From the NCBI GenBank assembly GCA_009711825.1, contig VEMY01000017.1, positions 1 through 44,691 of the forward strand: 44,691 bases of DNA, given 5' to 3'. This DNA comes from Bacillota bacterium (lineage in GTDB: Bacteria > Bacillota > Proteinivoracia > UBA4975 > VEMY01). The notes beneath the pieces are model-generated. The model saw nothing but the letters and a program-made list of their open reading frames with translations, did not search any database and was not told the origin of the DNA. Within the stretch, counting starts at the first letter, position 1, and every line of letters starts with the position of its first letter. Position numbers and translations under genes: made by a program. Below are positions 31,458 to 35,558 of the stretch, piece by piece.

Positions 31458-31681
31458 CACTCCACCTCCACTTTCCCTCCATATGGGCACCTTCCATCGA
31501 CAAGTTCCGGGTCTTGAATCTCCTGAGCGCCCATCTTAATGCAAGCCGCTGGAAGGTCGGATGCGGGTGTCGGTATTTCCTCCAGGAAGTGCGGGCACTG
31601 TTTGCAACTTTCAACCTGGATTATCCGCACCTTGGTTCTCGCCCTACACAGGGGGCAAACCTTGTAAGCGTGTTGTTCCAT
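31457..31681 (-). CDS. zinc-ribbon protein, hypothetical
   Basis: 74 residues. CPLC near residue 9, CKQCPHF near 26, C47 and C65 give one or two zinc sites; KVRIIQVESC forms the first strand. ATG 31681 overlaps the SbcD stop as TGATG, with GGGGGTG upstream. Function unknown. Confidence 0.73.
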   Translation of the reverse strand: MEQHAYKVCPLCRARTKVRIIQVESCKQCPHFLEEIPTPASDLPAACIKMGAQEIQDPELVDGRCPYGGKVEVE

Positions 31682-32682
31682 CACTGCACCCCCAAAGCTT
31701 CCTTAGCCATACTCAGCCGCCTAAGCGCTTCCTTCTTGACCACCTCAGGTAGCTTGTCCCTCGCCGAAATATCCTCAATGATCTCCTGCATCTCCATAAA
31801 CCGGGCCGCCCCCTCCTCAGCCAACAGGCCCAGGAAGTCTGCAATCCGCTCCTCCCGTTCCTCGGCGGCGTCCAGGTGCTCCCGGCTCAAAACCTCATGC
31901 CCTGGTCTCGCCGACAACAGCGGCACCAGCTCGGCATCACAGCGACCATCCTTGTCAACCGTTAACAACGCCACCTGCACTTCTCTGGTTAAATCGCTCG
32001 CACTCGCCGCAGTCCTGGCCAATGCCCCTGGGTTAACGAACAGCACCCCATCCTCACGGCGATGCACCCCAAATCCGGGATGATAGTGGCCGGAGATTAC
32101 GACATCAGCGTTGGTCTCCACCTGGTCGATAAGTGTGTGTCGCATGTCATGGCCGGGGGAACTGTGCATCAGGTTGGCATGGACGATGTGAATTTTGGCC
32201 GTTGGCTGGTCCCGATGCGCCGGCAGCTCCGGAGCCATGAACTGGTTTGCGCCGGCCGGGGTGTCGGTTTCTGCGGTGTAGCCGTGGCCGGTTATCCTCA
32301 CCCAGGGGGGTGGGCCCGGACAACTCTGCCAGACAAAACCGTCCCGGCAGGCATCATTTATCTCGCCGATCATCTGCATCAGGCCGTAAGGTGTGCGGGC
32401 GACACTTGCGAGATTTGAGCCGAAAATGTCGTGATTCCCCGGGATGGTTATAATCGGGTTGTTGAAATAGTTAAGTATCCGTATCAGCTCGCCTACAACC
32501 CACCAGGCGGTGTTGGGTGAATTGAAAATGTCGCCGGTCTGGATTACTGGGGCGTTGTGTTCACGGGACAACTCTTCAATTTCCAAGAGCTTCAAGGTCA
32601 AGGCCCCCACGTAGTGATCAGTGCGCGCTCGTGGGTTCGTGCCCCGCCAGTGGATGTCACCAACGATGATGAATTTAAGCAT
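31681..32682 (-). CDS. sbcD: SbcD/Mre11-like metallophosphoesterase
   Basis: 333 residues, a little shorter than the usual SbcD. All five calcineurin-type metal motifs are present: VGDIHWRG (about 8), QTGDIFNS (48), IPGNHDIFG (80), VHANLMHS (about 165) and SGHYHPGF (about 194). The C-terminal third is helical, the region that contacts SbcC. It processes DNA ends or hairpins with the ATPase halves at 32882 and 34254. ATG 32682 overlaps the preceding stop as TGATG; in-frame upstream ATG lacks an SD. Confidence 0.9.
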   Translation of the reverse strand: MLKFIIVGDIHWRGTNPRARTDHYVGALTLKLLEIEELSREHNAPVIQTGDIFNSPNTAWWVVGELIRILNYFNNPIITIPGNHDIFGSNLASVARTPYGLMQMIGEINDACRDGFVWQSCPGPPPWVRITGHGYTAETDTPAGANQFMAPELPAHRDQPTAKIHIVHANLMHSSPGHDMRHTLIDQVETNADVVISGHYHPGFGVHRREDGVLFVNPGALARTAASASDLTREVQVALLTVDKDGRCDAELVPLLSARPGHEVLSREHLDAAEEREERIADFLGLLAEEGAARFMEMQEIIEDISARDKLPEVVKKEALRRLSMAKEALGVQ

Positions 32683-32885
32683 CAAATCAACCCCATTTCT
32701 ACATCCTGGCAGTCTGGGCAGATGTCTTCCCACTCACCGTTGCGCTTTTTGCTCTGCCAGCCATTAGCTTTTTTGTAGTCCACAGCATCATCAAAGTCAT
32801 TAAATATTTCTGGTGGCTCTTCACCACAAACATCGCAAGTTAAGAAATAAACATCTTGGCTACCATAAAATCTCTCAACGCTCAT
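32682..32885 (-). CDS. mini zinc-ribbon protein
   Basis: 67 residues. CDVC and CPDC at the two ends enclose a helix (FDDAVDYKKANGWQSK), giving one four-Cys site. It lies between the Rad50 C-terminal half and SbcD and overlaps both neighbours by a few bases (ATGA, TGATG). A role linked to SbcCD is possible only by position. Confidence 0.73.
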   Translation of the reverse strand: MSVERFYGSQDVYFLTCDVCGEEPPEIFNDFDDAVDYKKANGWQSKKRNGEWEDICPDCQDVEMGLI

Positions 32886-33556
32886 ACCCTCGCCACCTCA
32901 CTCACTCCATCTTTCTGCTCCACCCGATAAGCCACGTCTGCCACATCGGCCAAGGCCTCCTGGTGGGTAATGAGGATAATTTGACGCCCCGTGCGCTGAG
33001 CATATTGCTTCAAAAACTCAGCAACATTGGGGGCGAACTCCCGTGACACATGCTTCCCGGCTTCGTCCAGTATTACCGGCCCCTCAGGCTTGGGCCTTGC
33101 AAGCTCCAGCAAGGCCAACCTCAACGCCAGACTGACCACATCGGTAATCCCTCCGCCCCGAGCGTCCTCCGGATTGGCCGTCACGGTGATTGGCCCGGCC
33201 AACTCATCACCACCGGGGGCATTATACTGCGAGATAACCTGCCATTCGGCCGCCGGCTTGTTGGCCACCGTTTTCAGCTGGATCCTAAACTCCAGCCGGC
33301 TGTCCTCGAAAATTGCCTGCAGCGCAGCCGTGACTGTCTGCTCCACCCTGGCCTTCAGCTGCTCCCTGGCGAACTCGGACACCTTGCCGAACAGCGTTTG
33401 GACTTGCTCCCAGTCAGCGATGTCTGCCTCGGCTGATGTGAGCTCTTGTCGCGCGGCGTTGAGCTGCTCTTCCAAGGCCTCTTTACGGCCCTTGAGCTGG
33501 TCGTGTTTGGTTCGGAGTTGCCTGGTCTTTTGCTCCAGCGATTGGAGTCGGTTCAT
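32882..33556 (-). CDS. Rad50/SbcC C-terminal half
   Basis: 224 residues. Residues 1-50 are a coiled coil. The rest is the C-terminal lobe of an SMC/Rad50 ATPase: the signature region RGGGITDVVSLALRLALLE (133-151), Walker B PVILDEAGKHV (160-170) and the switch His in ILITHQE (H198). It has no Walker A, which is carried by the 434-residue product at 34254. The two must meet to form an active head, so the gene is a natural split of SbcC. ATG 33556 overlaps YopX by 4 bases. Confidence 0.85.
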   Translation of the reverse strand: MNRLQSLEQKTRQLRTKHDQLKGRKEALEEQLNAARQELTSAEADIADWEQVQTLFGKVSEFAREQLKARVEQTVTAALQAIFEDSRLEFRIQLKTVANKPAAEWQVISQYNAPGGDELAGPITVTANPEDARGGGITDVVSLALRLALLELARPKPEGPVILDEAGKHVSREFAPNVAEFLKQYAQRTGRQIILITHQEALADVADVAYRVEQKDGVSEVARV

Positions 33557-34002
33557 GATTTCACCTTCAGCAGTTCGGGGTTGTCGTGGATGTTACCGAT
33601 GACCTCGTATAAACTAGACTGTATTGCGATAAAGTCAATTGTATTTAGTAAGTGTGGATGCTCTATGTTTGGCTTATGTGCTCGGAAGCTAGCTCTCAAC
33701 TTATCCCACGTTACAACAAACGGCTTTTGCGAAACGCCATACCCTGCATCTCCGGGCGAAAACTTGAAATAGGCCTGAACAATATCTCCCTCGTAAATCT
33801 CCATGCCGTTTTTGTCCACTCGTCCGATGTATTGCCCAACGGTGTTGACGCAGACGATGTGCGACTTGTACGTATACGACCCAAGAGGGTTGTTATTGCT
33901 CGATTCGCTTAAAATCACAGTTTTGTCGGGCAGGACGACTATGCCCCCATAAACCCATTCGCCATTATCCGGTCGCTTGCCCCTGAATTCAATCTTTCTC
34001 AT
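33553..34002 (-). CDS. YopX-family protein
   Basis: 149 residues. The start IEFRGKRPDNGEWVYG and VGQYIGRVDKNGMEIYEGDI are hallmarks of YopX (PF09643), a beta-barrel phage protein of unknown function. The closing YEVIGNIHDNPELL is typical too. ATG 34002 overlaps the coiled-coil gene as ATGA, with GGAGGGGCT upstream. It stands between the two Rad50 halves. Confidence 0.92.
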   Translation of the reverse strand: MRKIEFRGKRPDNGEWVYGGIVVLPDKTVILSESSNNNPLGSYTYKSHIVCVNTVGQYIGRVDKNGMEIYEGDIVQAYFKFSPGDAGYGVSQKPFVVTWDKLRASFRAHKPNIEHPHLLNTIDFIAIQSSLYEVIGNIHDNPELLKVKS

Positions 34003-34253
34003 AGCCCCTCCGTCTCATTCATAATCCCCTCGGCCCGTTCAAGCGTTTCCAGAATCACCTTGTCCAAGCGTTCAATCTCCCCGTCCAGCTGGTCAGGCTT
34101 TAACCCATATTCCCGCTGCAGCTCCTCAGTCAGTCGCTTGATTTCGACCTCAGCATGGTCTAAGTTAGCCTCGGCCCTGGCCTTCTCGGTCTTGGCTTTT
34201 TCAATCTTTCCCCGCAGCTGTTCCATCCTGCCGGCAACATCGTTAATATCCAT
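33999..34253 (-). CDS. coiled-coil protein beside split Rad50
   Basis: 84 residues, almost wholly a heptad coiled coil in two parts: MEQLRGKIEKAKTEKARAEA through LTEELQREYG, a short turn at KPDQLDGE, then IERLDKVILETLERAEG. ATG 34253 is the base after the upstream stop, with AAGGGGGTAGTG as SD. Its place directly after the hook-bearing Rad50 half suggests that it could supply part of the returning coil. That is inference. Confidence 0.72.
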   Translation of the reverse strand: MDINDVAGRMEQLRGKIEKAKTEKARAEANLDHAEVEIKRLTEELQREYGLKPDQLDGEIERLDKVILETLERAEGIMNETEGL

Positions 34254-35558
34254 CTACACTACCCCCTTGATTTTTGTCGAATCTATTTCGCCACCGCAGG
34301 TCGGGCACTGTCCGGCCTCAACCAGGGCGTCCTTATATGCCCCGGTGTATTGGGCTAGCTTGTGCTCAGCCCCCTCCACCATCTGCTTGCTGGCATCAGC
34401 CCGGAACTCAGCGCCGATGAGCGCCTTGTTGATGGCCTTAAGCTCACTCAGCTTCGGCGCAACCTCAGCCGCCTCTGTCAGGTCAATCTCGGCCCAACCA
34501 ATCTTCCTAGCTAACCCGTCCCGGCAGTCCTCAGCCTTCCATTTGGCATCCTCGGCGGCATGGAGCTGGGAGCGGATTTTCTTTATCCCAGCCAGCTTTT
34601 GCGAGTCGCGTTGCACCCCCTCACAAAGACACCATGCTTCTCCTATCTTGGCCGTCTTTGCAAGGACTTTTTCCGCAATATTTTTTAGGGTGCCGTTATT
34701 CCAGAGGTGTCCTTTGGTGCCGGTAAGTTCGAATTGCAGGTCAAGGCTTGCTCCGGCCTTAAAGGCAAGAATTTCAGCCTCCGACACCACCGCCAGCTTG
34801 GCCAAAACCGCTTGCCACTGCTGGGCCTGTCCCTGCCTTGCGTGCAGCTTGTCCCGGACTGCTCGCAGTCGTTGAATCCGCTCCACATCGTTCCTGGCCT
34901 GGGCAATCAAGCTCTCCAGCTGCTCCACCAACTCACCCAGCCGGGGCAACCCCTTGAACTGCTCCAGCTGAGTCTGCAGCTCATCAATCCGAGCCTTGGC
35001 ACGCTCTCTGTCCTGTTTCCGTCTATGTAGGTCCGTGCCGAGGAGTTTGTTGGCGTGGTCAATTTCTTCCGTGCCTGCAAGTTTACCGAGTATGCGTGCC
35101 CGTGCGCCGACGCTGATAATGGAGCCAAGGAACGGGCCGTCCAGCTGCTCAGCCAGGTTCAGGTTGAGCGGCACATCGCCCACCATTGTCTGGCGGACCC
35201 CGGTTAGCTCTTGCACCTCAATGGGCACCTCGTTGCCGAAGCCTTCAAGTGTGGTGTAGCCATCCTCGAAGTAATCGCCTTTGAATACTTCATATCTATT
35301 CACCCCAGCGCTACGCTGCCGAGACACAACACCATTTATGAGCGTGACTGACACCATGGCCTTCTTGGCCCCAACCCGGATAAACTCATTGCCATGGGGC
35401 CGGTTATACAAGACCCATTTCAGCGCCCGGATGATGGCTGTTTTCCCAGAGTCGCTAGGTCCAGTAATTACCGTCAACTGCCCAGGCGGCGCCGGCTCGA
35501 TTTCAGTCTTTTTATGGGATTGGAAGTTCTCAACGGTTAGCTTATTGATTACGCTCAT
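34254..35558 (-). CDS. Rad50/SbcC N-terminal half with zinc hook
   Basis: 434 residues. The start INKLTVENFQSHKKTEIEP and Walker A GPSDSGKTA (33-41) are the SbcC N-lobe, followed by the Q-loop region and a coil from about 175. The protein ends right after a zinc-hook motif CPTC (C418, C421). Signature, Walker B and the returning coil are absent; they are in the product at 32882. The hook would dimerise two such molecules. ATG 35558 overlaps the preceding stop as ATGA, SD GGTGATTC. Confidence 0.88.
   Translation of the reverse strand: MSVINKLTVENFQSHKKTEIEPAPPGQLTVITGPSDSGKTAIIRALKWVLYNRPHGNEFIRVGAKKAMVSVTLINGVVSRQRSAGVNRYEVFKGDYFEDGYTTLEGFGNEVPIEVQELTGVRQTMVGDVPLNLNLAEQLDGPFLGSIISVGARARILGKLAGTEEIDHANKLLGTDLHRRKQDRERAKARIDELQTQLEQFKGLPRLGELVEQLESLIAQARNDVERIQRLRAVRDKLHARQGQAQQWQAVLAKLAVVSEAEILAFKAGASLDLQFELTGTKGHLWNNGTLKNIAEKVLAKTAKIGEAWCLCEGVQRDSQKLAGIKKIRSQLHAAEDAKWKAEDCRDGLARKIGWAEIDLTEAAEVAPKLSELKAINKALIGAEFRADASKQMVEGAEHKLAQYTGAYKDALVEAGQCPTCGGEIDSTKIKGVV

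Follow-up and report, generated by a model that had tools for sequence, protein, structure and literature searches.

A probable three-piece Rad50 (SbcC) and its SbcD partner in phages and chromosomes of Bacillota

A prophage in a Bacillota genome carries genes that likely specify an SbcC (Rad50) made in three pieces which, with SbcD (Mre11), would assemble in trans for DNA-end processing. One gene encodes the N-terminal half of Rad50 and ends just after the zinc hook, a second encodes the C-terminal half, and a third encodes a small two-helix protein, here called k. The same split set is found in Bacillota phages, jumbo phages and Bacillota chromosomes, amounting to hundreds of genomes. The sequences directly show the genes, their motifs, conservation and neighbours, the joint occurrence of the halves and the natural fusions; from these we infer assembly in trans, hook dimerisation, nuclease activity and the position of k. 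Judged by the sequences of relatives, the split is old and general and not a recent break, and the three-gene Rad50 looks like a stable design, not a broken gene.

Gene layout in the window

The window, meaning the whole stretch of 44,691 nucleotides analysed, is contig C17 of a 3.09-Mb genome. Its surroundings are those of a temperate siphophage prophage, including a terminase, portal, major head protein, tape measure, primase-helicase, RecD-like helicase, anti-repressor and integrase, and the split Rad50 genes lie within the phage replication region:

34254..35558, minus strand: SbcC/Rad50 N-half, 434 aa, with Walker A, Q-loop, repeat-built arm and CPTC hook
33999..34253, minus strand: k, two-helix protein, 84 aa, with the conserved break GLKPDQL (family consensus LGVxPExL)
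33553..34002, minus strand: YopX protein, 149 aa (Pfam YopX, E 4e-17)
32882..33556, minus strand: SbcC/Rad50 C-half, 224 aa, with RGGG signature, Walker B and switch His
32682..32885, minus strand: 67-aa ORF with two CxxC pairs (weak phrog_17873 match, E 1e-3)
31681..32682, minus strand: SbcD/Mre11 phosphoesterase, 333 aa from the ATG at 32682 (Metallophos, E 9e-12)

The genes are read on the minus strand in the order N-half, k, YopX, C-half, 67-aa ORF, SbcD. All six are coupled through TAG or ATGA, mostly with 4-nt overlaps: the k start abuts the N-half stop (TAGATG), and the YopX gene overlaps both k and the C-half by 4 nt each. An earlier note on this DNA had described a Rad50/SbcC in two genes with YopX and a coiled-coil gene between them, and every one of these features is present. 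It also had SbcD following the C-half; SbcD is indeed downstream, but the 67-aa ORF intervenes.

Since N and k share a reading frame in the window, stop-codon read-through into one N-k chain was considered. It was rejected, as the gap between N and k varies in size and frame among relatives and a purine-rich tract lies upstream of k.

PHROGs holds the N-half in phrog_16465 ('exonuclease', E 2e-65), the C-half in phrog_15167 ('ATPase', E 5e-61) and k in phrog_18563 (no function given, E 2e-7), which are not annotated there as parts of one Rad50. Because separate families are kept for the two halves and the coil protein, the split is not due to chance.

Two further observations concern the genomic context. 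A phage integrase and tRNA-Ile/tRNA-Ala genes lie at the contig end (42666-43955 and 44158-44315), a possible attachment region. A short repeat, catctaacctccgtccc, occurs in more than one copy close to a host ABC transporter gene (L248, ~775-815 and 1440-1470).

The two halves and SbcD

Both elements of a Rad50 N-lobe, Walker A and Q-loop, are present in the N-half. Walker A (GPSDSGKT) occupies residues 33-40 (35439-35462) and the Q-loop (LAEQLDGPF) residues 135-143 (35130-35156), with G33, G38, K39 and Q138 invariant in the N-half alignment (A6, from which k-only rows were dropped since they were misplaced in the first N+k alignment, A5). The hook, CPTC, is at residues 418-421 (34296-34307), 13 residues before the C-terminus, so the protein does end right after it, as had been noted. 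Together with its post-hook helix, this tail can be aligned to the solved zinc hook of P. furiosus (1l8d, E 4e-6); in relatives there is likewise a short post-hook helix as in canonical Rad50, and then the protein ends. Among ~160 distinct N-halves, nearly all carry CPxC near the C-terminus, at the arm apex, and terminate 7-32 residues beyond it. An independent set of named genomes agrees, the end lying at most 35 residues from CPxC in 63 of 69 N rows; several of the remaining rows are broken fragments or run on further past their CPxC.

The C-half supplies the complementary lobe, and the signature, Walker B and switch His previously read in it all hold. RGGG is at residues 133-136 (33149-33160), the Walker B DE at 164-165 (motif at 33056-33073) and the switch His at 198 (within 32960-32971); D164, E165 and H198 are invariant across C-halves. 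Most C-halves carry RGGG where LSGG(E/Q) is canonical, retaining the glycine pair with Ser replaced by Gly, so ATP engagement may differ. In the model of a homologue (L039), the N-terminal helix of the C-half is ~83 residues long, of which the distal ~60 are coil, which makes the earlier estimate of about 50 coil residues roughly right.

The best solved-structure profile match is Rad50 for both the N-half (5f3w, E 7e-14) and the C-half (3qkr_B, E 2e-16), and the predicted structures of the halves match Rad50/SMC heads in Foldseek. In the SbcD partner, which is adjacent in most loci, the metal-binding motifs GDIH, GDIF, GNHD, HxxH and GHYH are intact, and D9, H11, D51, N83, H84, H168, H199 and H201 are invariant.

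Head similarity of this kind also reaches defence systems. PADLOC matched N to LmuB (E 8e-14) and C to mad3 (E 2e-10), which might indicate an anti-phage defence ATPase, Lamassu LmuB-like or MADS. SMC-head similarity is generic, however, and the partner here is SbcD. PADLOC gave no match on SbcD or YopX, so that the weak, head-only match stands without LmuA/LmuC context. The chromosomal neighbours (recA, rny, nurA, herA) and the place of the window copy in a phage replication region also speak against a defence role, which we regard as barely credible.

Distribution and gene order

The split is shared widely, and its gene order is conserved across related phages: typically N-k-C-D in phages, as in IMG/VR phage contigs, and D-N-k-C in hosts. 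Variants exist. For example, Bacillus phage vB_BboS-125 (NC_048735) has N, an AP2-domain gene, k, C, a 118-aa gene and SbcD, while a 485-kb phage has N, HNH, SbcD, k, sliding clamp and C. In vB_BboS-125, the SbcD ORF is unannotated and lies inside a 1-kb annotation gap (L002, 7019-7999). No relative turned up when viral_contigs was scanned with the C-half protein alone, whereas alignment-based searches found them.

For chromosomes, 398 genomes of the host's phylum were searched with a C-half profile, which gave ~63 strong matches, most in a D-N-k-C cassette. Of 70 host loci, recA and rny enclose 23, and herA and nurA adjoin 29. Named Bacillota genomes, including Alkalihalophilus pseudofirmus OF4 and Halalkalibacterium halodurans, show D-N-k-C in 66 of 80 cases, and the interval from recA to rny holds 57 of the 80 loci. 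The C-half stands alone in 13 of the 80 (in the one examined, Acetivibrio mesophilus, as folD-C-rny; L264, 5965-6642). D-N-k was found at another locus in all 10 C-alone genomes tested, so the halves can be unlinked and yet both be present.

Separation of genes in some genomes, namely Magritte and the Acetivibrio group, would fit two independent ATPases that are mere neighbours of SbcD. Against this, the lobes are complementary, each lacking half of the ATP site, the partner half is present in every unlinked genome tested, and natural SbcD-N-C fusions exist; independence of the halves is thus very unlikely. In Microbacterium phage Magritte, the halves are ~93 kb apart (L003, 4001-5053; L004, 284-934), and its N-half has no CxxC hook. 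Proteins of the phrog_1499 type from Streptococcus, Paenibacillus and Bacillus phages (L005-L007) were not counted as half-Rad50s: they are compact ATPases made as a single chain, beside Sak4-type genes.

The SbcD-N-C fusions are single chains of 684-700 aa beside addA/addB in three genomes of one family (L176, 7652-9754, minus strand; L177, 6264-8318, plus strand; L178, 7583-9670, minus strand). They have no hook and almost no arm. The C-half tree places the window in a phage clade (100/91) apart from a host-chromosome clade (99/95), and the single chains nest in the host clade, within the split clade, which makes them re-fusions and not ancestors.

This bears on whether a once full-length sbcC was recently broken in the window prophage and is turning into a pseudogene. 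An extra gene between the pieces, YopX here and an AP2-domain gene in a related phage, is what such a break might leave behind. However, all motifs are intact and the starts are coupled, the same split with very deep distances occurs in essentially all relatives, and no full-length SbcC was found in close relatives, where everything is split and the single chains nest within the split clade. The relatives refute a recent break, to which we give next to no credence. Essentially all relatives keep separate half genes with unequal N-side and C-side arms, in place of the one long antiparallel coiled coil that joins the lobes of a single-chain Rad50.

The gene between the pieces is not constant: YopX in the window, the AP2-domain gene in vB_BboS-125 and a ParB-like gene, named by eye from its sequence, in locus L184. 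Besides the window, a YopX of this kind turned up in a single locus (L011), elsewhere in the order, so YopX is not part of the machine; by these sequence comparisons it is an incidental insert. The 67-aa ORF between the C-half and SbcD is probably incidental too. The inserts look like incidental cargo, and the original fission possibly came from a homing endonuclease.

Divergence of the parts is correlated, with distance correlations of 0.80 (N-C), 0.81 (k-C) and 0.89 (C-D); the partial N-C correlation given D is 0.38, so the correlated distances partly reflect shared ancestry. The split set also replaces the usual enzyme. Canonical SbcC, defined as a TIGR00618 match above 100 bits, was found in 0/56 cassette or fusion genomes and in 22/56 others of the phylum (Fisher p 4e-8, uncorrected for kinship). 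In the genome that contains the window, there is neither a canonical SbcC nor a further copy of the N-half or the C-half. Eight named genomes were checked, and one, Bacillus solitudinis, has canonical SbcC as well as the split set. Many Bacillota seem to have no SbcCD other than the split version. The multi-part SbcCD-like machine proposed earlier is thus strongly supported, by gene order, unlinked co-occurrence, correlated divergence, the SbcD-N-C chains and the replacement of canonical SbcC.

The repeat-built arm and the small protein k

The N arm (34308-35070 in the window) is a tandem 47-residue repeat of variable copy number. The period has harmonics at 94 and 141, and its signal is strong in hosts (z 38) and long-arm phages (z 26) and weak in short-arm phages. 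Arm length ranges from 120 to 333 residues, and host arms cluster near 233, 278 and 330, i.e. in unit steps, while k and the C-half are nearly constant. AlphaFold gives the arm low confidence and no information between chains, and the arm may be either extended or folded back.

Across the family, k is 77-117 aa long with a fixed pattern of a ~45-residue helix, the LGVxPExL break and a ~28-residue helix. It is predicted to be helical in two contexts and, alone, to form a two-helix hairpin. Called by HMM or coil-like composition near C, it was found no more than 900 nt ahead of C for 141 of 194 C loci, a partly redundant set; in jumbo phages it is further upstream. It was not found in the short-arm actinophage-like group that includes Magritte, and no fusion of k with N or C was seen among the loci examined.

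The earlier suggestion that the 84-residue protein contributes coil remains plausible, k being predicted helical and following the post-hook helix. Its simplest form, one k as the missing strand, is contradicted by arms of such different lengths: N-arm length does not rise with k (Spearman -0.52) or with the C-half (-0.07), so the absent strand of all these arms cannot come simply from one k. As the N-arm copy number varies and k and C hardly do, k does not match the arm in length as a missing coil would. It could brace a part of the arm, be bound in several copies or act elsewhere; k is probably a splint of the arm.

It is also possible, if rather less so, that k is a separate regulator or loading factor on the head, SbcD or DNA, and that the N arm folds on itself through its 47-residue units. 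The stepwise arm beside a near-constant k and C, the negative correlation, the failure to find k in the short-arm group, the lack of fusions and the predicted hairpin all fit such a role. Set against them are the position of k, nearly always between N and C or adjoining one of them, and a hook-plus-k alignment that continues into the coil after the Rad50 hook, although similarity between coils is generic. A modular Rad50, whose arm changes by 47-residue units and is lined by several k copies as exchangeable splints, is an unlikely but conceivable further reading.

A proposed assembly

In the three-piece Rad50 favoured here, the N-lobe (Walker A, Q-loop) and the C-lobe (signature, Walker B, switch His), on separate chains, would form one ABC head in trans. 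The N-half would provide the ascending arm of tandem 47-residue units up to the zinc hook, which would join two complexes through Zn2+ coordination. Of the descending arm, the C-half would contribute only a short base, at which the C-terminal region of SbcD would dock, and k would lie against the N arm, the C-half arm or both, serving as a helical splint. By analogy with what is generally known of SbcCD and phage recombination genes, the complex may process DNA ends and hairpins for phage recombination-dependent replication, and the chromosomal version beside recA or HerA-NurA may serve repair.

Relation to known systems and significance

Canonical SbcCD/Mre11-Rad50 shares with the split system both Rad50 lobes, a CxxC hook with its post-hook helix, and an Mre11-type partner with complete metal motifs. 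It differs in that the window's Rad50 consists of three chains cut after the hook, with an arm of 47-residue units, RGGG and unequal arms. Chromosomal split cassettes flank nurA and herA and so resemble the archaeal HerA-NurA-Mre11-Rad50 end-resection system, but here the cassette is bacterial and Rad50 is in three pieces.

A 218,948-bp phage contig (L043, 4534-6843 and downstream) encodes an SbcD-N fusion with separate k and C-half genes, and is presumably that of Bacillus phage 0305phi8-36. Non-canonical SbcD/SbcC (Mre11/Rad50) fusion proteins have been reported in viruses, plasmids and Firmicutes, the fusion of 0305phi8-36 being noted with a P-loop NTPase segment missing (PMC3175470). If the contig is that phage, its k and C-half genes would be the missing segment. 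Those proteins are fusions whereas the split system is a fission; non-canonical SbcCD is common to both. No description of a split or half Rad50/SbcC was found in the open-licence literature, and the three-gene design is apparently undescribed so far.

In the usual view, Rad50 is a single chain, and its long coil links the ATPase head with the zinc hook. Here, a natural and widespread Rad50 is cut just after the hook, with one strand of the arm largely missing or coming from a separate subunit. This makes it possible to test whether covalent coupling of head and hook by both strands is needed, what difference the length of the arm makes, and whether opening of the apex on one strand is possible. 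In addition, phage genes listed as 'exonuclease', 'ATPase' or hypothetical are in several cases reassigned to a split Rad50. If the modular reading were true, arm length or stiffness would be set by subunit loading and not by one continuous chain, and Rad50 would be a multi-subunit assembly with an apex open on one strand.
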